From the NCBI GenBank assembly GCA_003563005.1, contig PWTC01000064.1, forward strand, positions 1 through 33,934: 33,934 bases of DNA. Direction: 5' to 3'. The position numbers and the translations under genes are program-made. Under the pieces are notes generated by a model that worked only from the letters and a program-made list of their open reading frames with translations, did not search any database and had not been told where the DNA came from. Shown here piece after piece: positions 8,913 to 28,050 of the stretch. The stretch's first letter is position 1. Each line of letters begins with the position of its first letter. Source of the stretch: Candidatus Acetothermia bacterium. Lineage in GTDB: Bacteria; Bipolaricaulota; Bipolaricaulia; Bipolaricaulales; Bipolaricaulaceae.

Positions 8913-8941
8913 GGCGCAAAACGGGGCCAAAGGAGGAGAGG

Positions 8942-10119: not shown

Positions 10120-10128
10120 ACGGGAGAT

Positions 10129-10217: not shown

Positions 10218-10254
10218 ACATGTGTCTTTTGTAAAGCTGCAAGGGGAGGTGGGC

Positions 10255-10872: not shown

Positions 10873-12095
10873 CCTTTTTGCTCGCCCTTGTCGTCGCGCT
10901 GTCGGTCACAGGAGCCGGGCAGGTAGGCCTCCAGGCCGAGCTAGGCTGGGAGGGACAGGCGGTAGCGGGTGAGGTGAACCCGCTGTGGGTACGCGTCACC
11001 CACGATGGTCCCGGGTCCGTCAGAGGTGTGTTGGTCGTGCACCAGCGCACGGAGCCAGGTTGGTACGGCGAGAGCGAGCGGTGGATGAGGCGGCCGGTAG
11101 AACTGGCGCCTCGGACGAGCACAGAATGGATCCTGCCTTGGCCGCTTGCACTCGGCGCCTCGGAGCTTTCAGTCACACTCGAGGTGGAGGGCCAGGAACA
11201 GGCGCGGGCGTCGTTGCCGGTCGTGCTGGCAAGTCTGCCGGTACAACTGCACCTGGGACGACCACACCAGGCCGTCAAGCCCGGCACCGTCGTGGTGGAG
11301 CCCGCCGCGCTTCCCGTTGACCCCATGCTGCTTTCAGGCGTCAGCACGATACGGATCGGAGAGGGAGCCACCCTTGGCGCTTCGGACCAGCACAGCCTCA
11401 GAACGTGGGAGACCCTGGTGGCCGGACGCCAGGGGGCGACGGGATCCGTGCCGCATCCCTCAAGCGAGCAGCTCCAGGACGGGCTCGCACAGGTGGCGTT
11501 CGATGCCGAGCGTTGGTGGGTGTACCTGGCGGCGATGGCAGTGTATGTCGCGGTGGCGGCATGGCGGCTGGCGCGGTGGTCCCAGCGAGGAGGCACGCGT
11601 GCAGCTCTGATGCTGGCGGCCACAGCGCTGGGATTGGTCCTCTTTCATGCGGTTTCGCCCCGCCTTCCTGCGCTTTATGTGTCCATACAATGGTCTGTGC
11701 AAGATGATCGCATCGCCGACACTGATGTGCTTTGGCGCGCTCTGTTTGCCAGGCAGGCACGAGATGTGGCCCTCGAGGGATTATGGGCTGACCTCCCAGC
11801 GGTGGGGGACCACCGCGACGGGCTGGACATCGGCTGGATGTGGTCCCAGGGGGGGTGGACGACGCATGTCCGCTTGCTCCGTGGAGAGCCGCGGACCCTA
11901 TGGGCACTCGCTCCGCGGCGGTCGGTGGACGAACTCGCCCGGATGGATACGGATGCCGTCCAGCGCGACCCTGTATCGAGCTGGATGGTCGACGCGGGGG
12001 GGGCGAGCGGAGAGGGACGCGTCCTCCAGCACGTACGACGGGAGACCGATGAACGGGAGGTGATCCGTGTTCTACGCTGGTCGGGAGACATCTAG
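10869..12095 (+). CDS. Protein A: signal peptide, beta domain, two membrane helices (copy 1)
   Basis: I do not recognise this 408-aa family. The N-terminus is a signal peptide (TFLLALVVALSVTGAG). An all-beta extracytoplasmic domain follows, opening with the ELGWEGQAVAGEVNPLWV segment shared with the copy 2 paralog. Two membrane helices lie at about 216-236 and 244-262. A C-terminal region then contains the shared WMWSQGGWTTH segment. The ATG at 10869 overlaps the recombinase stop; a longer reading inside the recombinase gene is rejected because the signal peptide starts here. Likely a membrane-anchored partner of the VWA proteins downstream (inference from operon position). Confidence 0.8.
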   Translation: MTFLLALVVALSVTGAGQVGLQAELGWEGQAVAGEVNPLWVRVTHDGPGSVRGVLVVHQRTEPGWYGESERWMRRPVELAPRTSTEWILPWPLALGASELSVTLEVEGQEQARASLPVVLASLPVQLHLGRPHQAVKPGTVVVEPAALPVDPMLLSGVSTIRIGEGATLGASDQHSLRTWETLVAGRQGATGSVPHPSSEQLQDGLAQVAFDAERWWVYLAAMAVYVAVAAWRLARWSQRGGTRAALMLAATALGLVLFHAVSPRLPALYVSIQWSVQDDRIADTDVLWRALFARQARDVALEGLWADLPAVGDHRDGLDIGWMWSQGGWTTHVRLLRGEPRTLWALAPRRSVDELARMDTDAVQRDPVSSWMVDAGGASGEGRVLQHVRRETDEREVIRVLRWSGDI

Positions 12096-12777
12096 GCGTT
12101 TCATTCCCGAACGCTTACGGGGGTCCTTCCAGGGGTTCCTGATTCTAGCAGGGCTGGGGTTCGCGATCGCCACATTCGTGCCCGGCGAGGTCGGCGCCTA
12201 CGCCGGCAGTCTGGAGAGCGCGCACGGTGGCCGTCTATTCCCCTATGCCCTGACGTTGCTCCTGGGGGCACTGGGGCTTCAGATCGGCGACGAGCTGGGG
12301 GGGCTTCCCTACTGCTATCGACCCGTTCTTCGACAGATACTGCATCTGGCAGGCCTGGTGGGGTTGGCACTCGGACTGGCGGCGCCCTTGGTCGTTGTCT
12401 ATAGAGCCTGGACGGGTGCACTGTGGAGTGATGTGGCGCTTGCCCTGGTGTACTGGGCGGTGTCGCTCACTTCCTGGGGGATCGTTGGGGCCGCCTTGAC
12501 GCGTGCGGTAGTATTAGACGAGCGAAGGTTCGTGGCCAAGCTTGGCTTTTTGGTTCTCGTCATGTTCCCCCCCCTGATCTCGCCTGTCCCGCTGAGTCCG
12601 TTGGCCGCGGCAGCGGACATCTGGAGCGGTGTTCCTGTGCAAGCCGTCGTTGGATGCGCGGTGCCGACCGCAACCGCTCTGGTTGGCCTGGGGGTGATAC
12701 TATGGAGTCGACGAGCCGGGTCCTCCGTCGGGCCTACATCTGGGCCAGGATCCGGAGTTCCCTACGGGCTTCTCTAG
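12067..12777 (+). CDS. Protein B: six-helix membrane protein (copy 1)
   Basis: A 236-aa integral membrane protein with about six hydrophobic segments, starting from GTG at 12067 and overlapping gene A by 29 bases. Its paralog in copy 2 shares the layout, including a first loop with LESAHGGRLFPYAL (LHGVHLFPLIA in copy 2) and the ISPVPLSPLAA segment (IAPAASPLLA). No transporter or enzyme motif is visible. The last 25 codons are read out of frame across the start of gene C, so the tail after the last helix (SSVGPTSGPGSG) is low-complexity and probably not important. Confidence 0.75.
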   Translation: MFYAGRETSRRFIPERLRGSFQGFLILAGLGFAIATFVPGEVGAYAGSLESAHGGRLFPYALTLLLGALGLQIGDELGGLPYCYRPVLRQILHLAGLVGLALGLAAPLVVVYRAWTGALWSDVALALVYWAVSLTSWGIVGAALTRAVVLDERRFVAKLGFLVLVMFPPLISPVPLSPLAAAADIWSGVPVQAVVGCAVPTATALVGLGVILWSRRAGSSVGPTSGPGSGVPYGLL

Positions 12778-14132
12778 TGGCTTCCCTGGCGTGCGGTGTG
12801 GCGTTCGCCGCGTGCCGGCTGGCCGGCGCGGACTGTCCAGACGCGGTCTGGACTGCTGTGGGTGCTGCCGCCATCGCTGGCTGGTTCCGTTCCCCTCGGC
12901 GCGGCCGCGCTCTATGGGCATTGGGTCGAGCCATGGGGCTTGGGGAACGACTGGCAACGCTGGAAGCGCTCTCGGACAGGCCCCACACAGGGGTGGCAGC
13001 GCTTTTGGTGAGGGACATCGAGCGCTGCCGCTGGCGGGTTGGGCGCCTGGCCATCGGCAGATGGGAGCTCGTGGGGCTCGCAGTTGGCGTAGCTGTCCTG
13101 GGATCGCTATGGCTGCCGGTGGGGAGCGGCCATTCGACCCCGCTCGATGTGCCCAGGACTGCGGAAGCTCACCAGGCGCTCGTCGAAGACGAGGACGACC
13201 CGCCGCAACACGCACAGTCACCTGCGGCTCAACCGCGACCGGATGCGGGCAAGTCCGGCTACACACCGTACGTCGACCTACTCGCCAGCGTACTTGGAAT
13301 CGACGCTGTGGGAGAGCTTTGGGATGATCCCGAGGCCCTTGGCACAGCACTCGCTCAACAGCAGGGGCTGCTCAGAGAACTCGCCGAGCGTATGGCGGAA
13401 CTGGCAGCCGGGGAGAGGGAGCCCGGGAGGACGGACGGGCTGTCGGAGCTCGCCACGGAGCTTGCTCGGGAAGATCTTCGGGACATCGTGCTTCGAGCTG
13501 TGCGAAGCGGCGAGCGCGAGAGGGCCGCCGAGGCACGCGATGCACTGGATGCAGTACTGAGTGCCTCCGAGGATGCTGCGCAGCCGGGCGATGCCCCGGC
13601 ACCAGCCGAGGAGGAGGGCGACAGAGCCGACAAGGAACCCGTCACTGGCGTGCCTGCCGAAGGAGAGACCGCCACAACGGGCGAGGCGGCAGAAAGCGAA
13701 GCTGGCGACCAAGGGGACGGACATGCCTTCTCCGAACTAATGGGAGAGTTCCCAGAAATGAACGGCATGCTCGGCGCTCCCGCCACACTAGAGGGAGGAC
13801 CGGAAGCGGCGGAGTCACCGCCTTCGCAGCCCGGCGGAACTCCGGGCGCGGCCCGGGGCGAGTCCGTGCAGGAATCGAGCGGCCGTCCGGTCGACGAGCC
13901 GCAGGAGGATGCCTTGACCCCGGTCGCTGTTCGACCGGATGATGGCCTGTGGCGGGCCTACGTCGTGATCGATGCCCCTGGCGAAGCCCCTGGCGAGGCG
14001 GGCGAGCCGGTGGATCTGTCTCCTCAGGAGATCGACTTGCTGCTGCGGGTTCGCGCTGTGCCACCCGAGCTGCGGGACATCGTGCGGCGTTACTTCGAGC
14101 ATGTGACGATGGGTGTAGGAGGAGAGCCTTGA
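12702..14132 (+). CDS. Protein C: two helices, helical domain, Pro/Glu-rich linker (copy 1)
   Basis: This 476-aa protein is of unknown family. Residues 1-30 align without gaps to the copy 2 paralog from its own ATG, which supports the start at 12702. Hydrophobic segments lie at about 20-50 and 110-130. Next is a soluble helical region with YTPYVDLLASVLG and LAQQQGLLRELAERMAELAAGE, then a long acidic, Pro/Gly-rich linker (about 270-440). The end has a conserved helix, PPELRDIVRRYFEHVT. The pattern recalls the anchored partner proteins of other MoxR-VWA loci, but no named domain can be assigned. It overlaps B by 76 bases and moxR by TTGA. Confidence 0.75.
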   Translation: MESTSRVLRRAYIWARIRSSLRASLVASLACGVAFAACRLAGADCPDAVWTAVGAAAIAGWFRSPRRGRALWALGRAMGLGERLATLEALSDRPHTGVAALLVRDIERCRWRVGRLAIGRWELVGLAVGVAVLGSLWLPVGSGHSTPLDVPRTAEAHQALVEDEDDPPQHAQSPAAQPRPDAGKSGYTPYVDLLASVLGIDAVGELWDDPEALGTALAQQQGLLRELAERMAELAAGEREPGRTDGLSELATELAREDLRDIVLRAVRSGERERAAEARDALDAVLSASEDAAQPGDAPAPAEEEGDRADKEPVTGVPAEGETATTGEAAESEAGDQGDGHAFSELMGEFPEMNGMLGAPATLEGGPEAAESPPSQPGGTPGAARGESVQESSGRPVDEPQEDALTPVAVRPDDGLWRAYVVIDAPGEAPGEAGEPVDLSPQEIDLLLRVRAVPPELRDIVRRYFEHVTMGVGGEP

Positions 14133-15103
14133 TCACCGAACACAATGTGGAAGCTGCCCAACAGGCCGTTGCGGCCCTCCGCTCGGAGATCGGCCGCGTC
14201 ATCGTGGGACAGGAACGCTTGGTCGACGTTGTGCTGTGGGGCGTACTCGGGTGCGGGCACGTGTTGATCGAAGGCGTGCCTGGGCTAGGCAAAACGCTCC
14301 TGGTGCGGAGCCTGGGCCGGGCCATGGGACTGCGTTACCAACGGGTGCAGTGTACACCCGATCTCATGCCGGCCGACATCATGGGGACGAACGTGTTCCT
14401 CCCTGAGGAGGGCGCGTTTCGCTTTCTCCCCGGGCCGCTTTTCGCGCACGTGCTGCTTGCCGACGAGGTGAACCGCGCTACGCCCAAGACCCAGGCGGCC
14501 CTTCTGGAGGCGATGCAGGAGTCCCAGGTGACGGTCGCAGGTACCACCCACCTGCTCGAGCCGCCGTTCATCGTCATGGCAACGCAGAATCCCATCGAGA
14601 TGGAAGGGACCTATCCGCTCCCCGAGGCACAGGTAGATCGGTTCCTGTTCAAGGCCGAGGTGGGCATGCCCGACGAGCGGGACATGCTGGAGATCACCCG
14701 CCGCAACACGCTTCCTGAGGTGCCCTCCACGGTACCGGTGATGACCCGAGAACAGGTACTCATGGCCCAGGCAGCCGCCGCCAGCTATGCCGTCCCCGAG
14801 CCGCTGATGGACTACGCGGTCCGCTTGGTCCTTGCCACACACCCTGGCCACCGCGCTGCTCCAAACTTGGTCAACGATTTCGTGCAGTACGGCCCCAGCC
14901 CGCGTGGGGCCTTGGCCCTGGTGACGGCAGCGAAGGCCCAAGCGTTTCTCGACGGCCGCTACCACGTGACGCTAGACGACCTCCGAGGAGCGATCAGGCC
15001 CGCCTTGGTTCACCGCGTGCTGGTGAACTTCCGCGGGGAAGCAGAAGGGGTAGCGCCCGCCGACATCCTGGGGTCGGTCGTGAAATCCGTGCGTCCTCCA
15101 TGA
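14129..15103 (+). CDS. moxR: MoxR-family AAA+ ATPase
   Basis: A 324-aa MoxR ATPase, a chaperone-like AAA+ family that acts with VWA proteins in metal insertion or activation of protein complexes. Walker A is GVPGLGKT (49-56), Walker B is LLADEVNRA (Asp112-Glu113), sensor 1 is Asn154 in ATQNP, and the arginine-finger region is YPLPEAQVDRF. The C-terminal lid helices include GPSPRGALALVTAAKA. The TTG at 14129 overlaps the C stop as TTGA after a GGAGGAGAG ribosome site; upstream readings in this frame lie inside gene C. It is the only MoxR in the window and may serve both operon copies. Confidence 0.95.
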   Translation: MITEHNVEAAQQAVAALRSEIGRVIVGQERLVDVVLWGVLGCGHVLIEGVPGLGKTLLVRSLGRAMGLRYQRVQCTPDLMPADIMGTNVFLPEEGAFRFLPGPLFAHVLLADEVNRATPKTQAALLEAMQESQVTVAGTTHLLEPPFIVMATQNPIEMEGTYPLPEAQVDRFLFKAEVGMPDERDMLEITRRNTLPEVPSTVPVMTREQVLMAQAAAASYAVPEPLMDYAVRLVLATHPGHRAAPNLVNDFVQYGPSPRGALALVTAAKAQAFLDGRYHVTLDDLRGAIRPALVHRVLVNFRGEAEGVAPADILGSVVKSVRPP

Positions 15104-15972
15104 GCGGCGTGCTGTTGACCGACGCTGAGCTGAGGGCGCTTGCACGGGCGCGGGTTCGACTTGGGCGGGTGCGCGGGACGATGCCGGGGCTGCACCCCTC
15201 GCCATGGTCGGGCCTATCGTTGGAGTTCGCCGACCATCGCCCGTATCAGACCGGAGATGACTACCGCCTCATCGACTGGACGGTGTACGCACGCCTGCGG
15301 CGGTTGGTGACCAAGGTGTTCGCGCGGGAGGCGGAGACACCGCTGTACATCTTGCTCGACACCAGCGCGTCCATGGGGCAGGGGAGGCCGCGCAAGCTGG
15401 ACAGCGCCGCGCGTATGGCGGCAGCCCTGGCCTTCGTGGCACACAGAAACCAGGACCGTCTCGCGGTTCACATGCTCGGCGGGACAGCGGGCGAGTATCC
15501 ACTTCCCAGACGGGGAAGGGGCGTCCTCGTGGAGACGTTCCGGGTGCTCAGTCAGGCCTCTGCAGAAGGCACCCTCGCTCTGGACAAGGCGCTCGTCCGC
15601 TGGGCACGCGTCACACGCTCCCCGGGCACCTGCATCGTGCTCTCCGACTTCCTCGTCGAGGGTGGCTATGCCGACGGGCTTCGCGCGCTGCGCCACGCGC
15701 GCTACCAAGTGATGGCGGTGCAGGTCTTGGCCAGCACCGACCTCGACCCTCCTCGGCTGGGAGAGGTTCGGCTTTGGGACGTGGAGACACGTCGCTCACG
15801 ACCGCTCGTGTTGGGCAGGAGAGCGTGGAGCGCGTACCAAGAGACGTTGGCCTCCTGGAACGCAGAGCTGAGCGCTGTCTGTGCCGATCTCGGCGTGGAC
15901 CGCTTCCTCTTCCGTGCCGACCTTCCTCCTGTTGAGGCCGCGCTGACCGTGTTCGCTGGAGGGCCGCGATGA
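15100..15972 (+). CDS. DUF58 protein with VWA domain
   Basis: A 290-aa DUF58 protein, the usual direct neighbour of moxR. The DUF58 core is visible as FADHRPYQTGDDYRLIDWTVYARL. A VWA fold follows, with metal-site residues in LDTSASMG (Asp87, Ser89, Ser91), a Thr in AEGTLALDKAL and an Asp in VLSDF. This protein is expected to dock on the MoxR hexamer as an adaptor (family knowledge). ATG 15100 overlaps the moxR stop as ATGA. In copy 2 only a possible C-terminal remnant is left. Confidence 0.93.
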   Translation: MSGVLLTDAELRALARARVRLGRVRGTMPGLHPSPWSGLSLEFADHRPYQTGDDYRLIDWTVYARLRRLVTKVFAREAETPLYILLDTSASMGQGRPRKLDSAARMAAALAFVAHRNQDRLAVHMLGGTAGEYPLPRRGRGVLVETFRVLSQASAEGTLALDKALVRWARVTRSPGTCIVLSDFLVEGGYADGLRALRHARYQVMAVQVLASTDLDPPRLGEVRLWDVETRRSRPLVLGRRAWSAYQETLASWNAELSAVCADLGVDRFLFRADLPPVEAALTVFAGGPR

Positions 15973-17630
15973 GCCTGCTCTTCCCCTGGGCTCTCGCATG
16001 GGCCTCCGCTGTGGTGGGCGTCGTTGTCCTCTACATGCTCAGAAGACGTGAACAGCAGATGCACGTATCTGCGCTGTTCCTTTGGGACCGCGTGCCGCCC
16101 GACGCCATGAGCCGTCTGGCGCGATGGCTGCCGAGGACGGACCCCATCCTCTGGGCGCAGGTGGGCGTCGTGTTGATCATGGCGCTGATGCTCGCCGCCC
16201 CCATGCTCCTGCAGGAGCGACCTGCCGGAGCCACAGCGGTGGTGGTCGACATATCCCTCACACTCGCCCCATCGGGTCGTCTTGAAGAGGCCCAGGACGC
16301 CGCACGGCGCATCATGAGGGAGTCGGCAGGACCCTGGGTGCTGGTGGGATGGGGCGATCCTTCCCAGATCCTTGTAGGCCCCACCGAGCGGGAGGAGGAG
16401 TTCCTGGCAGGCGTCGCCAACCTCTCCTACACACTCGCCGCGCGCCCGCCGCTCGCCCAAGCCCTGGCGGTTGTGCCCCCCCAATTGGACCGTGTTGTGG
16501 TGATCTCTGGTGCCCCTCCCGAACAGCCTGATGTCGACGTGGTGGCCCTCTCACCGGTCGAGAACCTTAGGATCGAGGCCTTTGCTGTCCGGGCCCAACC
16601 AGATGGGTCAGGATATCAGGCGCTTGTCGAGGTCCATAACGACACTGCGCGCTACGAGAACGTCGTTGTCACCGTCCGAGACGTGGCCGGGGGTCGGTCC
16701 TTCCGCCAGGCCATGCTGGTGCCGCCCCTGAGTTCAGATGTGTTCGTGTTCCCGCTCTGGGGGTTTGTGGGACCTGCCTACGTGGCCGAACTGCTCCCAG
16801 ACGACGGCTTCCCATACGACAACGTACGCTACTACGCGCTGGACATGCCCGCTTCGCTCCGCATCCGGTGGGAGGGAGAGCAGGACCGGTACCTGTGGGC
16901 GGCGCTGCAGGCGGCCGCCGCGGCCGAACGAACGGAGGTTCCCCCGTGGGACCTTACGGTGGTCGTGCGCACCCAGCTTGAGGTCGCTCCCGACGGTCCA
17001 TGTCTGCTTGTGGAGGCGGGGATCCCCGAGGCACCACGGGGAGAGCTCCTGCCTGCAGGTCCCTGGATGGCGGAATCCGACACGCTCCTGCAACACGTGG
17101 ACCACAGCCCGTGGGCGGTGACTGCACTCCACCAGATCTCCCCTCCGGAGGACGCTATCGTGCCCTTGTGGTCAGGAGAACTGCCCGTGATCGCCCGCTG
17201 GAGCGTGCCCGAAGGCCCGCGCGTGGCACTCTCTCCCGAGATGGCGCGGTCGAATCTGCCCTTGACAGCAGGCTTTCCTGTTCTAATTCGCAATGCGCTT
17301 GCGTGGCTCCTTCCCAGCCAGGACGGGCGCACGGTCACCGTAGGCCGTGCGGTGCGCCTGCCGACAGGCACCATCGTCCACACACCTAGGGGCGCGGTGG
17401 ACACGGTGTGGATCCCCGTACAACCCGGCCTCTTCGAGGCTGAGGAGCGCGGACGTCGCAAGTACATCGCCGTCAACGTGCCGTCCGTGGAGCTCGCAGC
17501 CCCGGGAGCTACGGAGCAAGTTCCTGCCGAACACGTACCGCGCAAGACCCCCATGTGGCCTTGGGTGGCCGGTGCAGCCCTCGGGCTGCTGATGATCGAG
17601 TGGGCACTGGCACGGCGGTGGGGCGCATGA
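15969..17630 (+). CDS. Protein F: BatA-like membrane protein with VWA-like domain (copy 1)
   Basis: A 553-aa protein with the aerotolerance/BatA N-terminal layout: a first helix (about 4-22), a basic LRRRE turn, VSALFLWDRV, a second helix (about 61-80), then a VWA-like domain. The metal site is weak: VVVDISLTLA has Asp94-x-Ser96-x-Thr98 rather than DxSxS, and no downstream DGxx motif is obvious. A long beta-rich region follows (about 190-450), with NLRIEAFAVRAQPDGSGYQA and NDTARYENVVV shared with copy 2. A single helix near 530-550 ends the protein. ATGA overlaps join it to DUF58 and G. Confidence 0.85.
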   Translation: MSLLFPWALAWASAVVGVVVLYMLRRREQQMHVSALFLWDRVPPDAMSRLARWLPRTDPILWAQVGVVLIMALMLAAPMLLQERPAGATAVVVDISLTLAPSGRLEEAQDAARRIMRESAGPWVLVGWGDPSQILVGPTEREEEFLAGVANLSYTLAARPPLAQALAVVPPQLDRVVVISGAPPEQPDVDVVALSPVENLRIEAFAVRAQPDGSGYQALVEVHNDTARYENVVVTVRDVAGGRSFRQAMLVPPLSSDVFVFPLWGFVGPAYVAELLPDDGFPYDNVRYYALDMPASLRIRWEGEQDRYLWAALQAAAAAERTEVPPWDLTVVVRTQLEVAPDGPCLLVEAGIPEAPRGELLPAGPWMAESDTLLQHVDHSPWAVTALHQISPPEDAIVPLWSGELPVIARWSVPEGPRVALSPEMARSNLPLTAGFPVLIRNALAWLLPSQDGRTVTVGRAVRLPTGTIVHTPRGAVDTVWIPVQPGLFEAEERGRRKYIAVNVPSVELAAPGATEQVPAEHVPRKTPMWPWVAGAALGLLMIEWALARRWGA

Positions 17631-20092
17631 TCCGATTCCTGGTGCCCTGGGCGCTGCTTGCCTTGGTCCTTCCTATGGGGGTGGTCCTTCTCTCGCGTCG
17701 CAGGGCGCTGTGGGGGCGCGCCCTCACCATGACGCTCCTTGTGGTAGCGCTCGCCCAACCTCAGCTGCTGCAACGCGATGTGGATCGCACGCTACTGGTG
17801 CTCGTGGATCGATCCGAGAGCACGGGAGCTGAGGCCGAAGTCGCCTACAACGCTCTGGCTGCGCAGTTGAGCGGCTATTCGGGCCCGGTGGGGCTCATCG
17901 AGTTCGCTGCGACCCCCCACCTCACCCGGGCCCCCGGCGCCGGCGTACCGGCGCTCGCCGGTGTTCCCCCCGGGACGGAGCGCATGGAGTCAGACATCGC
18001 TGCAGCCGTCGATCTCGCCCTCGGGATCGGGGGCCAGAGGCTCACGCACATCGTCCTCGTTTCGGACGGTCAGGAAACCAGGGGAGATCTCTGGTCATCG
18101 GCCGTGCGCGCCCGGGACCGAGGCGTATCGCTCTCGACCTACCCTGTGCAGGTCGTGGATCCGGTGCGCGTGGCCTCGCTGCGGGGCCCGGCGCGGGCGC
18201 CCTTGGGTAAGGTGATCCTGGAGGGGCAGCTGGAGGTCGCCCGGCAGGCGGAAGCCGAGGTCCTGTGGTGGGGGGATGGAGCACTGCTCCAGCGCACCGA
18301 GTCATCGCTCTCCCCGGGACTGCACACGCAACGGCTGGCCGTCACCCTCGACCGTGCCGGTCCGTGGACGTTTGCCCTGGAGGTGCGTGTCGATGAGGAT
18401 CCCTTCCCTGCGAACAACCGGCTGGACTGGGTGGTGCTGGCCGGAGACGCAGGCCCTGTGCTCGTCGTATCGGAGGATGGCGGTGCACAGGGGCTCCTGG
18501 AACAGACGGACATGGAGATCCGCGTCCGTCCTTCGTTCTCTCCGGCTGAACTTGCCGGTGTGGATCTCGTTGTGCTCGATGACTGGCCGCTGGCCGGGCT
18601 GGCGCGAACGGATGTGGATGCACTGCGTTCCCACGTCGCGGCCGGGGGAGGGCTGCTCGTCGTCCAGGGCCGCCGCGCCGTCGAAGGCTACACCGGTCCA
18701 CTGGAGGCGCTGCTGCCTGTTACCTACTCGGTGCCAGGGCGCCTGCAGGAGTCGCCGGCAGCCATCGTATTCGTGCTAGACAAGTCCGCCTCCATGGCAG
18801 CGATCACCGCCGGCGCGCGCCACATCGACCTGCTCAAGGAAGCCACCGCCTCCGCGGTGGAGGTGATGCATGAGGAGGATGTGGTCGGCGCGATCGCCTT
18901 TGACCGCGACCCTTACTGGTTGGTACGGCCTGGACCGGTGGTTGAGGTGAAGGCTGAGCTCTACAAAGCGCTACGGATGCTCGCTCCCTCTGGGGGGACG
19001 GATCTGGTGCCTGCGGTCCGCCAGGCCCTCACTGAACTCGAGGGCATAGAGCTCAGAGTTCGGCACATCGTCGTCCTGTCCGACGGGAAGACGCTTCCTC
19101 GACCCGACCTACCAGATCTCTATGAGGAGGTGGCCACCTCCGGTGTCGGGGTCACCTCCATCGCCCTCGGTGCAGATGCGGATCTCGACGCGCTGGGTTC
19201 TCTGGCACGCGCCGGGGAGGGTGAGGTCTTGGTGGTGAGCGATGCCCGCGACCTCCGGCGGGTGTTCATCGGGGAGGCCAAGCAGGCCGCTCGCCCGCGT
19301 TACCGGCAGGGCCAGTTCTCCGTGTCGATCGGACCCGGTGCTGCGTCCATGAACCTTTCCGGTCTCGAACTCCCAGCGATCGGCGGTTATGTGGTCACGT
19401 TTCCCAGACCGACCGCTGAGGTAGGTCTTATCGCACCCGAGGGAGATCCCATCGTTGCAGGTTGGCAGCTCGGCCTCGGACGCGTGGCAGTGCTCAACGT
19501 GGACCTGAGCGGACGTTGGACAGAAGCGTGGGTGGCTGAACCCGAGCTCGGACGGCTCTGGGGTTCCCTCGTGGGTTGGTTGTGGGCCCCGCGGGAGGAC
19601 GTCGAGCTGTCCTGGTCCATCGACGCAGGGGTGCTCCACGTGCAGCTCGACGTCCAGTACGGGGGGCGTTGGGTGAGCGATCGCCACTTCCGCGGCGAGA
19701 TCAGCGGGCCGGGCGGTGCACAGGCGCTAACGTTTTCCCCGACCGGCCCGGGCCAGTACATGGCCGAGTCACCCTACGAAGGTGCTGGACCGCATGTCCT
19801 CAGCGTGTGGGACGATTCCGGTCAGTTCGGGGGAACGTTCGGACTCGCACTCCCTTACCCGACCGAGCTGGCACGCCTCGGGCCTGACCTGGAGGTGCTC
19901 AGCGCATTGGCCGAGCTGACCGGCGGGACGCTACTGGGGGACGAGCTCCCCCCTGCTGCCCGCCCCGGCCGGGTCTGGGTGCCCGTGGAGCGGAGTCTGC
20001 TGTGGGCGGCTGCGTTCGCCTTCCTCGCGGATCTTGCCTTGCGGAAGCTCAGGCTTCCGCCCCCCCGAGGAAGGCACGCTGGGCGGGCGTGA
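17627..20092 (+). CDS. Protein G: double-VWA protein with amidotransferase-like domain (copy 1)
   Basis: This 821-aa membrane-anchored protein begins with two hydrophobic segments (residues 1-45). VWA domain 1 has the metal site DRSES (Asp61, Ser63, Ser65) and LVSDGQE. A class I glutamine-amidotransferase-like segment follows (about 275-370; VDLVVLDDW, AGGGLLVVQGRRAVEG), without an evident catalytic Cys. VWA domain 2 has DKSAS (Asp385, Ser387, Ser389), the GGTD threonine and LSDGKT. A beta-rich C-terminal part and a last helix near 790-805 follow. The layout is that of the large VWA proteins in MoxR loci. The ATG at 17627 overlaps the F stop (ATGA). It has exactly the same length as G'. Confidence 0.9.
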   Translation: MIRFLVPWALLALVLPMGVVLLSRRRALWGRALTMTLLVVALAQPQLLQRDVDRTLLVLVDRSESTGAEAEVAYNALAAQLSGYSGPVGLIEFAATPHLTRAPGAGVPALAGVPPGTERMESDIAAAVDLALGIGGQRLTHIVLVSDGQETRGDLWSSAVRARDRGVSLSTYPVQVVDPVRVASLRGPARAPLGKVILEGQLEVARQAEAEVLWWGDGALLQRTESSLSPGLHTQRLAVTLDRAGPWTFALEVRVDEDPFPANNRLDWVVLAGDAGPVLVVSEDGGAQGLLEQTDMEIRVRPSFSPAELAGVDLVVLDDWPLAGLARTDVDALRSHVAAGGGLLVVQGRRAVEGYTGPLEALLPVTYSVPGRLQESPAAIVFVLDKSASMAAITAGARHIDLLKEATASAVEVMHEEDVVGAIAFDRDPYWLVRPGPVVEVKAELYKALRMLAPSGGTDLVPAVRQALTELEGIELRVRHIVVLSDGKTLPRPDLPDLYEEVATSGVGVTSIALGADADLDALGSLARAGEGEVLVVSDARDLRRVFIGEAKQAARPRYRQGQFSVSIGPGAASMNLSGLELPAIGGYVVTFPRPTAEVGLIAPEGDPIVAGWQLGLGRVAVLNVDLSGRWTEAWVAEPELGRLWGSLVGWLWAPREDVELSWSIDAGVLHVQLDVQYGGRWVSDRHFRGEISGPGGAQALTFSPTGPGQYMAESPYEGAGPHVLSVWDDSGQFGGTFGLALPYPTELARLGPDLEVLSALAELTGGTLLGDELPPAARPGRVWVPVERSLLWAAAFAFLADLALRKLRLPPPRGRHAGRA

Positions 20093-20181: not shown

Positions 20182-20209
20182 CCGACACGCACCCTTCCTG
20201 TGTTAAGAT
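20182..20209 (+). promoter_or_regulatory. Promoter of operon copy 2
   Basis: CCGACA (20182-20187), a 16-base spacer and TAAGAT (20204-20209) precede the scar ORF. The GTTAAGAT box, a CTTCTGCAGAGC leader segment (CTTTTGTAAAGC in copy 1) and the GGGAGGTG ribosome site match the copy 1 leader in order and spacing within one base. Confidence 0.5.
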
Positions 20210-20245
20210 GAACGGGACTTCTGCAGAGCCTTGTGGGAGGTGCAC

Positions 20246-20377
20246 ATGTTGCTCGAGCTGGCGCAGGAGGGCTTCATGATCCCGGTACACATCCGTCGAA
20301 CTAGACCGCACGCGTGCCGGATTGCCGACTCCCTATCACCGTTCTCCTGGCAGGCCGTGAACAGGGTGCCGACATGA
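20246..20377 (+). pseudogene. Recombinase scar: 43-codon in-frame remnant
   Basis: This ORF encodes 43 aa. Its first 28 residues (MLLELAQEGFMIP...) align without gaps to the first 28 of the copy 1 recombinase (MALELTQEDFMTP...), about half identical. Its last 15 (SLSPFSWQAVNRVPT) align to recombinase residues 191-205 (VLSQDAWEAVNGLPQ). Codons 29-190, holding all six catalytic residues, are missing in frame. The promoter, the ribosome site GGGAGGTG and the ATGA overlap with the next gene are all kept. It has no recombinase function, but it may still be translated as a leader peptide that couples ribosomes to gene A'. Confidence 0.75.
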
Positions 20378-21660
20378 CTGCAAGGGCCCAGCTCATCGGA
20401 CTCGTTGTCGTCGCCTCAGTGAGCCTGCTTGCAGCTTCCAACCGAGTCTCGGTTGTGGGGCAGTTGGGTTGGGAGGGCCATGCCGTGGCCGGAAGGGTGA
20501 ACCCACTCTGGCTAGAGGTTGAGAACCTCACCGCAAGCCCCCTCAGCACCCAGCTGCGGGTACACCACCGGGCGGGGAACGAATGGCGAGGGGAGGCTCG
20601 CCGAGAGCTAATCCTGCCGTTGTTGTTGGCCCCTCGAGGGCGAATCACCTACCACGTGGCGTTTCCGCTGGACCTGGGTGCACGGCACCTGGTCGTCGAG
20701 ATCGGTGGGGAAGAGGTGGAAGCACGCTTCGACATACCCGTCAACGCGGTCCCTCAGGCGATCCAACTGGCTGTGGGTCCAGCGGCAGCCGTCCCGGGAA
20801 GTGCCTACCCCGTGAGGATTGAGGCTGCGGAGCTTCCCTCGGACCCCCTGCTCCTCGCCTCTGTGTCCGCGTTGTGGGTGGACCCGGCTGTGCGTCTTCC
20901 GGCAGAGGCCCAGGCCGCACTGTTGGCTTGGCACCTGCTTCTGGGCGGAGAGAAGGATGGAGCAAGAACTCCTGTCGCCGCGTGGCCGGGTGCACCGGTC
21001 TGGGAAGCCAGCCTGAGCGAGACCCCCCTAACCCGTGTACCTGCCGGGTTCGCCGCGACGGGGCTGCTGCTCTACCTGACACTCGGGGTGATGGCGCTCG
21101 GCAGGTGGGAGAGGACAGGGCGCGGCGCAGCCGTGTGGACGCTCGCCGCGCTTGCGCTGGGGCTCTCCTGGTGCAGCGCGGGCTGGTGGGGAACACAGGA
21201 AGCCCTCGTCGCACATGAATGGTCGATCACGACCCATCGTGTTCCCCGGTTCGAGCTATCGTGGTGTGGGTTGTTCGGACGCCGAGGTGCGGGCGTCGAG
21301 CTCCCGGGCCGGTGGACCGACCTGCTCGCTCCTGAGGACACCCTTAGCGGGCGAGACGTGCGCTGGGTGTGGGGCGCAGAGGGGTGGACGACCCAACTGA
21401 CGATCCGTGCTGGCGACCTCCGCGTCTTGTGGGGCCTTCAGCAGCTTCCCGATGCGAAGGAGCCGGGGACGCAAGCTGCACGCTTCTCATCGAAGACCCC
21501 AGACCCCCCGGACACGCTTCCGTCAGCACTTCATCCGCTGTGGGACGCCGCAACCCTCCTGGCCGGCTGCGGGGGTGCGGTGCACGCAACGGGAGTGTAT
21601 GACCGTCGGGAAGACTCCGTCTGGATACGTCAGGATCTCTACGTGACCTGCGATGACTAG
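20374..21660 (+). CDS. Protein A' (copy 2 paralog of A)
   Basis: A 428-aa paralog of protein A. It has a signal peptide (LIGLVVVASVSLLAAS), the shared QLGWEGHAVAGRVNPLW opening, a beta-rich domain, two membrane helices (GLLLYLTLGVMALG, and a second after GRGAAVWTLAAL) and a C-terminal region with VWGAEGWTTQ. Compared with A it carries a longer tail with LLAGCGGAVHATG and a final TCDD. The ATG at 20374 overlaps the scar ORF's stop exactly as A overlaps the recombinase; a longer in-frame reading from 20314 covers the scar and is rejected. Function is unknown. Confidence 0.8.
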   Translation: MTARAQLIGLVVVASVSLLAASNRVSVVGQLGWEGHAVAGRVNPLWLEVENLTASPLSTQLRVHHRAGNEWRGEARRELILPLLLAPRGRITYHVAFPLDLGARHLVVEIGGEEVEARFDIPVNAVPQAIQLAVGPAAAVPGSAYPVRIEAAELPSDPLLLASVSALWVDPAVRLPAEAQAALLAWHLLLGGEKDGARTPVAAWPGAPVWEASLSETPLTRVPAGFAATGLLLYLTLGVMALGRWERTGRGAAVWTLAALALGLSWCSAGWWGTQEALVAHEWSITTHRVPRFELSWCGLFGRRGAGVELPGRWTDLLAPEDTLSGRDVRWVWGAEGWTTQLTIRAGDLRVLWGLQQLPDAKEPGTQAARFSSKTPDPPDTLPSALHPLWDAATLLAGCGGAVHATGVYDRREDSVWIRQDLYVTCDD

Positions 21661-22288
21661 ACGACCGCTTCCCGAGGGCCTGGTGACGCCGATGCAAGCG
21701 TTCCTCCTGCTCATGGGTATTGCCTTTTTCCTCTCGCTCCTTGGTCCTTCTACAGTAGGTGGCTACAGCCGCTTCCCTGAGCCGCTTCACGGCGTCCACC
21801 TTTTCCCTTTGATCGCAGCGCTGCTCGTGGGGGTCTTGGGTGTACAGGTGGGCGAGGCGGTGGGCAGTCGGCCTCATCCAACCAGAGGGCGGGTACAGCG
21901 TGCGCTGTGGGGTGGAGCCCTTGTGTGCGCGGCTCTCGTCATGATCTCTCCCTTCTTCATCGCATACCAGTACTGGACCGGAACGTGGTGGGGACATCTG
22001 GTGGCAACCATTGGCCTCGTGCTCACGGTGGGCGTGCTTTGGGCAGTGATCGCGATGTGGGTGGTTGACTGGGTGCCGGCAGCTCCGTGGCGTTTCGAGG
22101 TCAAGTACCTTGCCCTTGGCGCAGGGTATTTCCTACCTCTGATCATCGCGCCAGCAGCCTCCCCGCTCCTCGCCATCACCGCGGTCTGGGAAGGACGCGT
22201 GCTTGACATCTTACCGAGTTGGGCCGGATACACAGCACTGATCGTGCTGAGCTTAGGTTGGTGGAGATGGAAGGACCAGAGAGGATAG
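21653..22288 (+). CDS. Protein B' (copy 2 paralog of B)
   Basis: A 211-aa membrane protein with about six hydrophobic segments and the same loop pattern as B (GGYSRFPEPLHGVHLFPLIAALLVGVLG). The ATG at 21653 overlaps the A' stop by 8 bases. Its tail after the last helix is short (WWRWKDQRG), whereas B carries about 20 extra residues; this fits the idea that the B tail is only a reading through into gene C. No catalytic or transport motif is seen. Confidence 0.75.
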   Translation: MTRRPLPEGLVTPMQAFLLLMGIAFFLSLLGPSTVGGYSRFPEPLHGVHLFPLIAALLVGVLGVQVGEAVGSRPHPTRGRVQRALWGGALVCAALVMISPFFIAYQYWTGTWWGHLVATIGLVLTVGVLWAVIAMWVVDWVPAAPWRFEVKYLALGAGYFLPLIIAPAASPLLAITAVWEGRVLDILPSWAGYTALIVLSLGWWRWKDQRG

Positions 22289-23709
22289 TTCTCGCTACGC
22301 TCCGTTGGTGCCGTGCAAGGACCGCCCTCCGTGGAGCGCTGATCGGCGGGCTGGGAGGTGTGCTGTGGTTACGAGCAGCATCGCTGTTCGGGTTGGATCC
22401 GCTGTGGGCTCTGTCGCTCGCGGGAATGGGGCTACTGGTCGGGCTTCTGTGGCCAACCCGCTCCCCTTGGGTGCTGCTGGCCGCCGGGCGGAGGCTCGGG
22501 GTGGGCGAACGGCTAGCGGCCCTGGACGCTCTGTTGAGGACCGATCGCGACGGGCTGGTCGCACTGGTCTACGCTGAGGTGCGTCGATGCCGTCCCGGTG
22601 TGTGGCGGCTTATGGCAGGGCCTTGGGAGCTAGTAGGAGCCATGACTCTGGCGCTTGCTGTGATCCTGCTACCGCTGGTCGTTGGTCCTGCACAACAGCC
22701 GGCCCACGACCATTCGCAGGCGCCCACGCATATGCCAGATCTATCGGAGGTGCAAGCTGTCGGGGAGAACTCTGAGACAGAACGTGAACCCAGTCCCTCC
22801 AGGTGGCCAGGTGCACTGCTGGGCGACTTCTCACCCTACGAGGATCTTCTCGCCGCTGTGTTGGGCCTGTCCTATTTGACGGCCGGAGGGTCAGACACAG
22901 TCGCCGAGGATGTGGCCAGACGCCTGGCGGAGCAGGAAGGGCTGTTGCGCGAGCTATCAGAGCGACTGGCCCAGTTGGCCAGTGGAGAGACGCAAGAGGG
23001 AGCTGGGCGCGCCATCGCGCAGCTGGCCGAACAGGTAGCCCGGGAAGATCTCAGGGAGCTGCTGCGGACAGCTGAGGACGGAGCTCAAGAGCATGTGCGA
23101 AGAGCATATGAGGCCACAGAGGCAATTCTTGCACGCAGCGAGGAGCTGACCCAACGACGTGACGCCCACAGGGAGGATCAAGCCCACAACAACGATAGGT
23201 TCTCCTCCGCCGCGCCAGAACGGGGAGCTGGATCCCGCGGCTTGCGTGAGGAAAGCGCGTTGACGGAGGCTCCATCAGGTGTTCCTATGGGCTCTTCTAT
23301 CGAGGAGCTTCCCTTCTGGGATTCCGCCCCAGAGGGAGATCGCCCGCCCGTCGCCCCCCACTACGGGTCCGACCATCGCAGCATGCCGAGTGCCCAGGAC
23401 GAGGACAGCGGAGGGCTTCCTGGAACAGCACGGGGAGAAGAACCCGTCATCGCACAGACCTCCCGACCGCCGACGGACGAACCGCCCATCTCTGCGCCCA
23501 CGCCCGTGCGTCCCGGTGACGGCCCCACCCGTGACTACGTGATCGCCGAGGTCCCCTCCGAAGGTGAGGACCACATGTACGGCGCTCGGTTGCCGTCCCC
23601 CCAGGAGGTAGAAGTCCTGCTCTCAGGACGGATCCTACCGCCGGGACTTCTCGATGTGGTGCGCCGGTATTTCGACATTGTCACCACAAACGAGGGAGGC
23701 GCGCATTGA
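22267..23709 (+). CDS. Protein C' (copy 2 paralog of C)
   Basis: A 480-aa paralog of C. Residues 1-30 (MEGPERIVLATLRW...) align with C from its start without gaps. Features in order are two membrane segments, FSPYEDLLAAVLGL, LAEQEGLLRELSERLAQLASGE, a long hydrophilic linker poor in predicted structure (about 290-430), and the conserved end PPGLLDVVRRYFDIVT. The linker has little sequence in common with C, while the end helix is well kept, so that helix may be the binding site for a partner such as MoxR or a VWA protein (inference). The stop overlaps the next short ORF as TTGA. Confidence 0.75.
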   Translation: MEGPERIVLATLRWCRARTALRGALIGGLGGVLWLRAASLFGLDPLWALSLAGMGLLVGLLWPTRSPWVLLAAGRRLGVGERLAALDALLRTDRDGLVALVYAEVRRCRPGVWRLMAGPWELVGAMTLALAVILLPLVVGPAQQPAHDHSQAPTHMPDLSEVQAVGENSETEREPSPSRWPGALLGDFSPYEDLLAAVLGLSYLTAGGSDTVAEDVARRLAEQEGLLRELSERLAQLASGETQEGAGRAIAQLAEQVAREDLRELLRTAEDGAQEHVRRAYEATEAILARSEELTQRRDAHREDQAHNNDRFSSAAPERGAGSRGLREESALTEAPSGVPMGSSIEELPFWDSAPEGDRPPVAPHYGSDHRSMPSAQDEDSGGLPGTARGEEPVIAQTSRPPTDEPPISAPTPVRPGDGPTRDYVIAEVPSEGEDHMYGARLPSPQEVEVLLSGRILPPGLLDVVRRYFDIVTTNEGGAH

Positions 23710-23918
23710 TCGACCAGAACCCGCTGGAGGGTGCGGGGACCGTTTTGCACACGCCCCACAGTGCACCGAACCGGATGGCTGCGGAGCAGGCGCAAGTACC
23801 AGGGGAGGGGCCCCCCGAACTCCCGCAAGCGGGCACACATGAGGATACGGTGCATCGGTTCATCATGGCCCTCGAGCAAGGAACGTCCGACGCCGCTCTA
23901 CCCAGGAGCTTCGCATGA
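23706..23918 (+). pseudogene. moxR-DUF58 scar: 70-codon ORF
   Basis: This ORF starts with TTG in a TTGA overlap with C', as moxR does with C, and its first residues (LIDQNPLEGA) resemble the MoxR start (LITEHNVEAA). Its end (TVHRFIMALEQGTSDAALPRSFA) can be aligned to the DUF58 end (GVDRFLFRADLPPVEAALTVFAGGPR), and its stop overlaps F' as ATGA, as DUF58 does with F. The middle is Pro/Gly/Glu-rich with no recognisable domain. About 1.6 kb is missing relative to copy 1. The remnant reading is positional plus weak sequence similarity; a real short gene is the alternative. Confidence 0.55.
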
Positions 23919-23927
23919 GCTTCGCAT
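23906..23927 (+). repeat. 11-bp perfect tandem duplication at the F' start
   Basis: GAGCTTCGCAT is present twice in direct contact (23906-23916 and 23917-23927). The unit junction creates the ATGA that ends the scar ORF and starts F'. Confidence 0.8.
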
Positions 23928-25585
23928 CCCCGATCGCCTGGGCCTGGACCGCGGCCGCCCTCTGGGTGGTCCTCCTCTATCTGCTACGGCGACGCGAGCG
24001 GATGATGCCCGTGTCAGCCCTATACCTCTGGGACAGGGTGCGGCCCGACACCACCAGCCGCCTTCAGCGATGGTTGCCGCATGCCGACGTGCTGCTCGCG
24101 CTGCAACTCCTGGCCGTGGTCTTGCTCGCCGCCGCCGCTGCGCAGCCCGTGTTGCACATCAGGCGCATCGCTGGGGCCACCGCGATCGTCGTCGACGTCT
24201 CAGCTGCGCTCGCTGCTGACGGACGTAGCGACGAGGCGCGTGCGGCGGCACAGGACATCCTGGCTGAGTCCACAGGTCCGTGGGTCGTCGTTGGATGGGC
24301 GGACCCTCCGCGAGTGCTGGTTCCGCCCACCGATAGGAGGGATGTGGTGAATGCAGGGCTGGCACAACTGGAAGCCACCCTCCTGGACCGTCCGTCCCTT
24401 CCGGTGGCCCTCGCACTCCTCGAGGACCCTTGGGAACGCATCGTGGCGATCACCCCTTCACCAACCCAAGAGACGGAGGTGGAGGTCATCAGACTTGCTC
24501 CGGTTGACAACCTATCCGTGCAGGCGTTCTCGGTTCGCCCGCAGCCGGATGGTTCCGGTTATCAGGCCATCGTCGTCGTCTACAACGACACGGAGAGCTA
24601 CCGAGATCTGCAGGTCATCCTCAGAGGCGTGGGCGGAGCACGTGCCCTCATGCAGTCGCGCCTTGTGGGCCCCGGCAAGGAGGAGATGATCGAGCTTCCT
24701 CTGATCGGGGGACTCAGCCCGGCGTTCAGCGTTGAGCTGCGTCCGGTCGATGCGTTCCCATGGGACAATGTCCGGTACTGCGCCCTTGATACTGCCTCCG
24801 TGCTCCGCGTGCGCTGGCTTGGGGAGGAAGACCGTTATCTATGGGCAGCGATCCAGGCCGCGGTCTCAGCTGTTCGCGTCGACGAACCACCATGGGACCT
24901 CACGGTGGCCGTGCGCATCAGCCTTCCTCAGATGCCGGACGGTCCGACGGTGTTGGTCGAGGCATCCTCCCCAGAGGGGCAACTGGGCACGGCGCAAGCT
25001 GCGGGCACGCTGCAGGCGATGGACCACCCTATGCTTGTGCACATGGACCTTGTCGGCGTGCGCGCTGCCTCCGTGCTTCCCCCCGATCTGCCTCCGGAAG
25101 CCGAGGTTGTGCTCTCGGCCGAGGGGGTTCCGCTGCTTGCGACGTGGGAGACGTCACAGGGGCGCCGTGTGCTGCTGTCGATGGAACTCAAGCGCTCGAA
25201 CCTTCCTCTACTACCTAGCTTCCCTGTTCTGATACGCAACATGCTGACATGGCTTACACCCACGGACATCGCTCCATCGTACTACGTAGGGCAATCCGTA
25301 CCCATACCCGAGAACTCCCGACTACACGGACTTGAGAACGTCCACGACGTCTGGGTACCCCAGGCGCCAGGTCTCTACGCGATGGAGAACGAGCGGGGGA
25401 TCCGCTGGATCGCTGTCAACGTTCCGGGCGTCCCGCTGCAGAACGAACAGCGCCCTGATCATGCCATCAGCGAACCCAGCGCTCGACCACGAACGGGAGA
25501 AGAGCCTGTTTGGATCTGGTTTCTCTGGGCCGCGCTGCTCTGTCTGGTCGCCGAAGGCTACCTGGCTTGCCGGAGGGGTGCGTGA
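23915..25585 (+). CDS. Protein F' (copy 2 paralog of F)
   Basis: A 556-aa paralog of F. The first 100 residues align to F without a gap: a helix, the LRRRER turn, VSALYLWDRV, a second helix, then VVDVSAALAADG. The VWA metal site is even weaker than in F (Asp-x-Ser-x-Ala), so metal binding by this domain is doubtful. The beta-rich middle shares VQAFSVRPQPDGSGYQA, NDTESYRDLQV and FPWDNVRYCALD with F. A final helix (WIWFLWAALLCLVAEGYLA) anchors the C-terminus. Its stop overlaps the G' start as TGATG. Confidence 0.85.
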   Translation: MSFASPIAWAWTAAALWVVLLYLLRRRERMMPVSALYLWDRVRPDTTSRLQRWLPHADVLLALQLLAVVLLAAAAAQPVLHIRRIAGATAIVVDVSAALAADGRSDEARAAAQDILAESTGPWVVVGWADPPRVLVPPTDRRDVVNAGLAQLEATLLDRPSLPVALALLEDPWERIVAITPSPTQETEVEVIRLAPVDNLSVQAFSVRPQPDGSGYQAIVVVYNDTESYRDLQVILRGVGGARALMQSRLVGPGKEEMIELPLIGGLSPAFSVELRPVDAFPWDNVRYCALDTASVLRVRWLGEEDRYLWAAIQAAVSAVRVDEPPWDLTVAVRISLPQMPDGPTVLVEASSPEGQLGTAQAAGTLQAMDHPMLVHMDLVGVRAASVLPPDLPPEAEVVLSAEGVPLLATWETSQGRRVLLSMELKRSNLPLLPSFPVLIRNMLTWLTPTDIAPSYYVGQSVPIPENSRLHGLENVHDVWVPQAPGLYAMENERGIRWIAVNVPGVPLQNEQRPDHAISEPSARPRTGEEPVWIWFLWAALLCLVAEGYLACRRGA

Positions 25586-28050
25586 TGCGGTTTCTTTCCC
25601 CCTGGGCGCTGGCTTCGCTGGGGGTGGCTGCAGGACTACTGTGGCTTACCCTGCAGTGGCACCGTCCCGTGGTCGGCCGGGCGCTGACCCTGCTGCTCGT
25701 GGCACTAGCGCTTGCACAGCCGGAGATCGCTCGGCCGCATGGCGACGAAGTAGTGTTCCTCTTGGTGGATCGATCGACCAGCGTCGGGGAAGCGGCCCGC
25801 GAGTCCGCGGAACGTCTCGCCGGCCAGCTGGCGGGCCGAGGCGCGCGCGTGGGGATCATTGAGTTCGCTGAGACAGCCCACCTGGTGCGATCGCCAGGCG
25901 GCGGGACGCCCGCCTCTCCCTGGCCCTCCCCTTGGGCAGCCCAGGGCGCCACAGCGGACATCGCTACTGCCCTCGATCTGGCGTTGGCCATCGCGCCGGC
26001 AGCGGCCACGCAGCTCGTGCTGCTCACCGACGGGCGCGCCGACCGCGGAGATGAACTCGCTGCAGCCCATCGTGCACGCGCGGCGGGGATCCCGATCTCT
26101 GTTCTGCCGGTTGCCCAGGGCGACCATGTCCGCGCAGTGAGCCTCTCCGGTCCGCGGGATGTTCCGCTGGGTACACTCGAACTCCACGGGCAGGTGGCCG
26201 CCAGCCGCTCCACAGAGGCCGAGGTCCTATGGTCGCGGGATGGGGTCGTCCTCGAGCGCCACACGACCTTGCTCAAGCCAGGGGTGCATGCGTTCACGTT
26301 CAGAGATCGCCCTGATGCCCATGGACTCCACCGTTACCGGATTGAGGTGCTGGCCCCAGACGACCCGGTGCCCGAGAACAACGCGCTGGAGTGGGCCGTG
26401 CATGTGGGTGAGGCTCCCGAGATCCTTGTAGTCGGAGAGCGAACGTCGTCCGTGGACGTGCTTCTTGCCGGCGCCGGGGTAACCTACCGCCGTGTCGAAT
26501 GGGTGAACCCAGAGCATCTGGCCCGCGTGAGCTTGGTCATCCTCGATGATCACCCATTGGCCAGGCTGGGCACCAGCGTCACGGAAGCTCTCCGAGCGCA
26601 CGTCTCCGCAGGCGGCGGGCTTCTGGTGGTTCAAGGTCGGCGGGCAGTCGAAGGTCTGCCCGGACGTTTCGAGGACCTGCTTCCTGTGAGCTACACCGTC
26701 CCAGGACGCCTGCACGAGGCTACAGCGGCGCTGGTGTTCGTGTTGGATCGATCCTCTTCGATGGCTGCCCGGACCATGGGTACAGCGCACATCGACCTGC
26801 TGAAGGAAGCCACAGCATCGGCGGTGGAGGCAATGCACGGGGAGGACGTAGTGGGCGCAATCGCCTTCGACCGTCAGGCACACTGGCTCGTACATCCTGG
26901 ACTGGTCGAGGATGTGGAGGCTGAGCTATTCAGAGCCCTCCGCGGCCTCACCCCCGGTGGCGGGACCGACATCTACCCCGGGATGGCCGAAGCGCTCGAT
27001 GCCCTTGAGGAGATCGACGCACGCCTACGTCACGTGGTGGTGCTCTCCGACGGCAAGACACTGCCGCGTCTGGAGTACCCGGCGCTCTACGAGCGCATCG
27101 CCTCGTCACGCGTGGGGGTCACGGCGATCGCCGTCGGAAGCGGCGCTGACGTGGAAGTATTGGGCAGACTCGCAGCGGCAGCCCAAGGGGAGCTCATCGT
27201 GCTCCGCGATTTCCGGGAACTCCGCAGCGTCTTCGTCGGAGAGGTGACGCGAGTGACACGTTCTCAGCTCATGGAAGGCGCCATCCAACCTCTGCCCGGG
27301 CCGGCCGGGGCGGCTTGGGGGCTCGAGGGCACCTCGCTGCCCGCGCTGTCAGGTTACGTGCTCACATTTCCCAAGCCTACCGCCGAGGTTGCGGTGATCT
27401 CACCCTCGGGCGATCCGCTCTTCGCCGCTTGGAGGTTCGGCCTGGGACGCGTCGCTGTGTTGAACACAGATCTTGCGGGCGGCTGGTCAGAGGCATGGCT
27501 GGACTCCAGCGTTGTCAGAGAACTGTGGGGTCACTGGCTGGGTCAGCTATGGCCGATCCGCGGACCTGTTGACCTCTCTTGGGACACCCAAGGAGCGGAG
27601 CTTGTGATCACGGCCGACGTGGAGCAGGGGGGCCGGTGGGTCAACGGCCTCGCCCTGATAGGCCAGTTGACGGGGGCCAGCGCCGTGGAGTCGCTGAACT
27701 TCGCTCAAGTGGCGCCCGGGCGCTACCGGGCATCCATGCCTCATCCCGGCGCTGGAGCATATCTAGTCGCCGTCTGGGATGGACTGGGCACCTATGCGGC
27801 CACCACCGGCGTCTCCATCGCCTACGCAGAGAGCCTACAGGCCTTCGGCCCGGACCTGCAGCGCCTGGAACCGCTGTACTCCTTGACCGGCGGAAAACTC
27901 CTCGGCGACGAGCTTCCCCCACCCTCGCTGCAAGAGGCTCGCATATGGATACCCATCTGGAGGGCGTTGCTCTGGGCATCTGGCGGGGCCTTCCTTGCGG
28001 ACCTCATGCTCCGCAAGCTCTGGACCTCACTGGTTCGTCCCACTGGCTAG
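25585..28050 (+). CDS. Protein G' (copy 2 paralog of G)
   Basis: An 821-aa double-VWA protein with the layout of G. VWA 1 has DRSTS (Asp62, Ser64, Ser66) and LTDGRA; the amidotransferase-like segment keeps AGGGLLVVQGRRAVEG; VWA 2 has DRSSS, HIDLLKEATASAVEAMH, GGTD and LSDGKT. Both metal sites are intact, unlike in F'. Two N-terminal hydrophobic segments and one near the C-terminus anchor it. This is the best-conserved pair between the operons, which suggests G and G' are the functional core. The stop lies 24 bases inside the convergent S-adenosylhomocysteinase gene. Confidence 0.9.
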   Translation: MRFLSPWALASLGVAAGLLWLTLQWHRPVVGRALTLLLVALALAQPEIARPHGDEVVFLLVDRSTSVGEAARESAERLAGQLAGRGARVGIIEFAETAHLVRSPGGGTPASPWPSPWAAQGATADIATALDLALAIAPAAATQLVLLTDGRADRGDELAAAHRARAAGIPISVLPVAQGDHVRAVSLSGPRDVPLGTLELHGQVAASRSTEAEVLWSRDGVVLERHTTLLKPGVHAFTFRDRPDAHGLHRYRIEVLAPDDPVPENNALEWAVHVGEAPEILVVGERTSSVDVLLAGAGVTYRRVEWVNPEHLARVSLVILDDHPLARLGTSVTEALRAHVSAGGGLLVVQGRRAVEGLPGRFEDLLPVSYTVPGRLHEATAALVFVLDRSSSMAARTMGTAHIDLLKEATASAVEAMHGEDVVGAIAFDRQAHWLVHPGLVEDVEAELFRALRGLTPGGGTDIYPGMAEALDALEEIDARLRHVVVLSDGKTLPRLEYPALYERIASSRVGVTAIAVGSGADVEVLGRLAAAAQGELIVLRDFRELRSVFVGEVTRVTRSQLMEGAIQPLPGPAGAAWGLEGTSLPALSGYVLTFPKPTAEVAVISPSGDPLFAAWRFGLGRVAVLNTDLAGGWSEAWLDSSVVRELWGHWLGQLWPIRGPVDLSWDTQGAELVITADVEQGGRWVNGLALIGQLTGASAVESLNFAQVAPGRYRASMPHPGAGAYLVAVWDGLGTYAATTGVSIAYAESLQAFGPDLQRLEPLYSLTGGKLLGDELPPPSLQEARIWIPIWRALLWASGGAFLADLMLRKLWTSLVRPTG

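Follow-up and report, generated by a model that had tools for sequence, protein, structure and literature searches.

In bicistronic (two-cistron) expression designs, a short dummy leader cistron is used, and ribosomes are passed from it to the next start. Termination–reinitiation at natural ATGA overlaps has been described as well (PMC6728339, PMC10666635). In native pairs, a distance of about 20 nt between stop and start nearly abolishes reinitiation, and the 3′-terminal 15 nt of the upstream gene are enough for it (PMC10666635). Overlap need not entail coupling: in the Escherichia coli bioBF pair, the overlapping gene, whose Shine–Dalgarno (SD) sequence is very weak, is not coupled (PMC6728339).

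The DNA considered here, referred to as the window, is the whole stretch of 33,934 nt that was analysed and comes from a MAG of Bipolaricaulota (Acetothermia) (G000:C152). It contains two successive operons (Table 1). Copy 1 has the order int-A-B-C-MoxR-DUF58-E-F, ends at 20092 and is headed by the recombinase gene int. Copy 2 is headed instead by a 43-codon open reading frame (ORF) at 20246–20377 of the + strand (ATG at 20246–20248, stop TGA at 20375–20377), which encodes the 43-aa peptide MLLELAQEGFMIPVHIRRTRPHACRIADSLSPFSWQAVNRVPT. The genes A′, B′, C′, E′ and F′ are all intact, and their divergence from copy 1 is greatest at third positions; MoxR and DUF58 are missing from copy 2, between C′ and E′. 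Where these two genes are missing lies a 70-codon TTG ORF (23706–23918) with a strong SD (−11.4), which starts within the stop of C′ (TTGA) and ends within the start of E′ (ATGA). Considered as a second in-frame scar, it showed no similarity above chance to the ends of MoxR and DUF58. In second operons of family f2 (L064, L066 and L078), MoxR is present and no DUF58 was detected between MoxR and E, so partial loss of the enzyme genes is recurrent in extra operon copies.

Table 1. Coordinates of features in the window (SD energies are for the anti-SD duplex).
Feature	Coordinates	Strand	Remarks
int, copy-1 recombinase	10255..10872	+	205 aa, catalytic domain only; Pfam Phage_integrase 1.9e-33
Gene A, copy 1	10869..12095	+	ATGA overlap with int at 10869; no SD (−2.4 kcal/mol)
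Rest of copy-1 operon: B, C, MoxR, DUF58, E, F	12067..20092	+	
MoxR ATPase, copy 1	14129-15103	+	
DUF58, copy 1	15100-15972	+	
BatA-like E, copy 1	15969-17630	+	
VWA protein F, copy 1	17627-20092	+	
Retained −10-like box	20201..20209	+	TGTTAAGAT; box 1 of 21-bp repeat
Decayed second box	20218..20229	+	TTTTGTAAAGC in copy 1, CTTCTGCAGAGC in remnant
Remnant SD	20235..20242	+	GGGAGGTG; −11.5 kcal/mol
Remnant part from int residues 1-28	20246..20329	+	0/2000 shuffles as good
Deletion join	20324..20329	+	GCCGA microhomology common to both copy-1 breakpoints; 486 bp lost
Remnant part from int residues 191-205 plus stop	20330..20377	+	TGA overlaps A′ start
Gene A′, copy 2	20374..21660	+	428 aa; start ATG within ATGA; no SD
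Rest of copy-2 operon: B′, C′, E′, F′	21653..28050	+	
SAHH-like gene	28027-29280		

It is practically certain that the 43-codon ORF is an in-frame, internally deleted copy of the recombinase gene. Its residues 1–28 align without gaps to int residues 1–28 (BLOSUM62 score of 73, shuffle maximum of 41) and its residues 27–42 align to int residues 189–204 (score of 46, shuffle maximum of 33), with 0 of 2,000 shuffles as good in either case; a local alignment of remnant and int DNA likewise scored above all 500 shuffles. This better-than-chance match at both ends bears out the initial annotation, which had read the ORF as recombinase residues 1–28 joined to 191–205. The 28|191 junction is one valid placement, as GCCGA is present in copy 1 at codons 27–28 and again at codons 189–190, which leaves the exact breakpoint uncertain by about two codons. 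The presence of GCCGA at both breakpoints makes a 486-bp microhomology deletion the simplest origin, and a loss of this length is in frame (162 codons). That every catalytic residue has been deleted, as was also claimed, holds for the residues assigned by motif (R54, K81/K84, H152, R155, H179 and Y188): the R-K-HxxR-H-Y set (54–188) lies entirely in the deleted stretch, and the remnant does not qualify as a tyrosine recombinase.

The gene from which the remnant derives is coded once per relative, with 60–81% identity and in the order mutL-MerR-HD-int-operon; each genome of family f1 has one full-length copy at a conserved place. Its product is the sole PF00589 protein in six of six family members searched, two of which are single-contig genomes. 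Compared with XerC/XerD, the protein matches TIGR02224 (1.3e-35), yet well below the equivalog cut-off, and matches to the XerC and XerD profiles begin only at about position 103–114; the N-terminal core-binding domain is absent from its 205 aa. As the only PF00589 protein in these genomes, int is likely to be the sole Xer of the cell, and it is a candidate minimal Xer. Beside the only Xer-like recombinase, another copy would have been superfluous. Int is not a mobile gene: it is vertically inherited, occurs once per genome and keeps its position, and on these grounds an origin of the remnant from a mobile integrase, transposon or MITE-like element was ruled out. An apparent third recombinase copy, on contig C46 (L003, G000:C46), proved to belong to a syntenic contig of a related strain that ends inside int. 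This contig carries mutL-MerR-HD-int at about 81% DNA identity, is syntenic with window positions 3271–10430 with a gap at about 4203–4865, and accounts for part of the 4% contamination of the bin.

In G017 and G003 an SAHH-like gene directly follows F, so the second operon lies precisely where the ancestral unit stopped. A tandem operon copy at this place was found in no other genome searched. In the tree of F, copy 2 falls outside copy 1 and its relatives in G003, G010 and G017 (support of 100/99 and 100/100), and the tree of E places it likewise; third-position identity between the copies for A–F is 0.30–0.37, near saturation. Either, therefore, the duplication predates the genus and was lost elsewhere, or a stem relative was the source of copy 2. 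Saturation is lower in the remnant than in A–F, with a third-position identity to copy-1 int of 0.52 over 42 codons, and the remnant joined copy 1 weakly in a nucleotide tree (80% support). On these few data, the lower divergence would fit gene conversion of int between the copies and a later deletion.

The stop of the remnant overlaps the start of A′ as ATGA (20374–20377), which is the spacing of a coupled pair, and the ORF has a ribosome site of its own, as the upstream member of such a pair does; the anti-SD energy is −11.5 kcal/mol, compared with −12.5 kcal/mol for int. For A′ the value is −3.9 kcal/mol, and random 20-mers of the window average −3.7 kcal/mol. The int stop and A start also overlap as ATGA, with A in frame, in 12 family f1 relatives with a readable junction (in a thirteenth, L011, the junction is cut by a contig end), and the 20 nt upstream of A give −2.4 to −3.0 kcal/mol in the overlapping relatives and copy 1. 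Where the overlap is absent (L012 in family f1, and family f2), most of the likely A starts, by our choice of start, have an SD of −4.5 to −11.5. The conserved ATGA and the lack of an SD in the relatives therefore indicate that A appears to depend on the overlap, and because A′ has gained no SD, the remnant ORF is its only clear ribosome-loading site. Among the 246 single-base frameshifts in the remnant, 151 would terminate translation over 20 nt short of A′. From these sequence features we infer translation of the ORF and a dependence of A′ on it, and we put the probability that the ORF serves as a ribosome-loading leader for A′ at about 0.63.

Several observations weigh against such a leader. 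The region upstream of A in the relatives is int coding sequence, so the lack of an SD there may partly reflect protein constraint, and the bioBF pair is uncoupled in E. coli despite overlap and a very weak SD (PMC6728339). Among the genomes searched, the junction occurs in this one alone. With a z of +2.2, the start region of A′ is predicted to fold more weakly than 199 of 200 shuffled sequences, which could permit SD-independent initiation. This unusual lack of structure also speaks for a passive remnant, in which a recent deletion was in frame by luck (1 in 3), the frame is still open by chance and A′ initiates independently from its weak, unstructured start. We consider that account less likely than the leader, as A′ lacks an SD while the SD, frame and ATGA of the remnant have all been kept. 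An independent int remnant in G045 (family f2; L062 2116–2262, G045:C9) cuts both ways. There, int residues 157–205 stand before a second, separately placed operon, 137 bp before A and uncoupled from it, which indicates, from this one case, that int copies before duplicated operons do decay passively; but that A has an SD of its own (−9.3), and no in-frame leader is seen where A starts alone.

A short ORF that looks translated and heads an operon might also be an attenuator, a regulatory leader peptide that senses translation speed. The remnant, however, has no run of one codon type and no unusually stable structure, and no terminator-like hairpin was found between 20080 and 20420; this is the least probable account that we considered.

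The promoter, ribosome site and ATGA overlap had all been described as kept. The SD, a −10-like box and the overlap are indeed present, but the promoter is not entire. GTAAA/GTTAA occurs twice, exactly 21 bp apart, upstream of 18 of 18 intact int genes of family f1 (1 in 9,000 shuffles); these are copy 1 (window 10209–10235), L006–L017, L021, L072, L076, L077 and L003 (C46). In 10 of the 18, TTGAC is found 22 bp upstream of the first box, a placement that makes this box the −10 element of a TTGAC-17-TAAAAT type promoter. The second box lies in the presumed transcript leader, and it has decayed in the remnant, so that the promoter region is only half kept. As a guess, the second box could be an operator site, perhaps one for int.

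Constraint on the peptide was assessed by codon models with a clock shared with copy 1 and three placements of the remnant (T1, T2 and T3). With a free branch length, omega was uninformative owing to saturated synonymous sites (t of about 10–20), and the clock-constrained models were used for that reason. Int-like constraint on the remnant was rejected against a free omega by 23, 18 and 11 lnL units for the three placements, and the free omega on the remnant branch was 0.46, 0.36 and 0.20. Int-like constraint followed by neutral drift came within 1–2.5 lnL of the free omega, and full neutrality since the duplication was slightly worse (2–3 lnL for T1 and T2, 13 for T3). The acceptance of the two-phase model, with the lower saturation of the remnant, indicates that the deletion may have followed long after the duplication. 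These results provide no evidence for continuing constraint on the peptide, the sequence of which is not conserved.

An omega of 0.2–0.46, below 1, and the slightly worse fit of full neutrality are what a functional 43-aa peptide would give, for example a dominant-negative or DNA-binding recombinase fragment. Such a function is highly improbable: residues invariant in the int genes of family f1 are changed in the remnant (for example, D9), an int-like rate is rejected and the two-phase model yields an omega below 1 without any function. Rejection of int-like constraint is also expected of a coupling leader, because only the frame and the ends would matter.

With a local indel/substitution ratio of about 0.06 (3/48), taken from non-coding stretches aligned with C46, the probability that the remnant frame stays open under neutral drift is about 0.05–0.25. 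The initial annotation had argued that, without selection, such a remnant should by now be decayed. Although the duplication is old, this probability and the fit of the int-like-then-neutral model mean that the decay argument is not compelling; both agree with a passive remnant, and an open frame that is only weakly improbable under neutrality (about 0.05–0.25, multiplied by 1/3 for an in-frame deletion) counts against the coupling leader. What remains of the coupling proposal in that annotation is the in-frame deletion, the strong SD, the ATGA overlap and the SD-less starts of A′ and of A in the relatives; conservation of the peptide sequence is not part of it.

Under the coupling-leader reading, the int-A-B-C-MoxR-DUF58-E-F unit was duplicated in tandem, and an in-frame deletion between short direct repeats removed 162 codons from the redundant second recombinase. 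The 43 codons left behind are still preceded by the ancestral strong ribosome site and still overlap A′ as ATGA. Ribosomes recruited there would read through the meaningless peptide, stop at ATGA and restart on the SD-less A′; what selection would preserve is the loading site, an uninterrupted frame and the overlap, regardless of the peptide sequence. More generally, we tentatively propose that leader ORFs may originate in this manner, with the head gene of a coupled operon hollowed out in frame after duplication and its loading start and reinitiating end selected; loss of the promoter box may have freed operon 2 from control by the recombinase. If this is true, a coding sequence may lose its protein yet persist because ribosomes must cross it, and this would be one origin of short leader ORFs that annotation pipelines skip or label as pseudogenes; deleting or mis-annotating such remnants would lead to misjudged expression of downstream genes. 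In the literature searched, nothing was found on Bipolaricaulota recombinases or on in-frame remnants kept for coupling.

The locus shares features with several described systems. Like the single-recombinase Xer type (XerS, XerH and XerA; PMC5357621 for the class), int is the only tyrosine recombinase in its genome and its catalytic domain is closest to the XerC/XerD profiles; it differs in its length of about 205 aa, in lacking an N-terminal core-binding domain and in heading a MoxR/VWA operon. The operons resemble Bat-type MoxR/DUF58/BatA-VWA operons in their MoxR AAA ATPase, DUF58, BatA-like N terminus and VWA protein, but contain the additional genes A, B and C, which have no Pfam match, and the second copy is without MoxR and DUF58. 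As in termination–reinitiation at ATGA overlaps (PMC6728339, PMC10666635), a 4-nt overlap joins an SD-bearing upstream ORF to a downstream gene without a strong SD, whereas here the upstream cistron is a 43-codon deletion remnant and the coupling is predicted from sequence. The predicted arrangement is also akin to the bicistronic designs, in that a short meaningless leader ORF would hand ribosomes on; here, the leader is natural and was made from a real gene by internal deletion.
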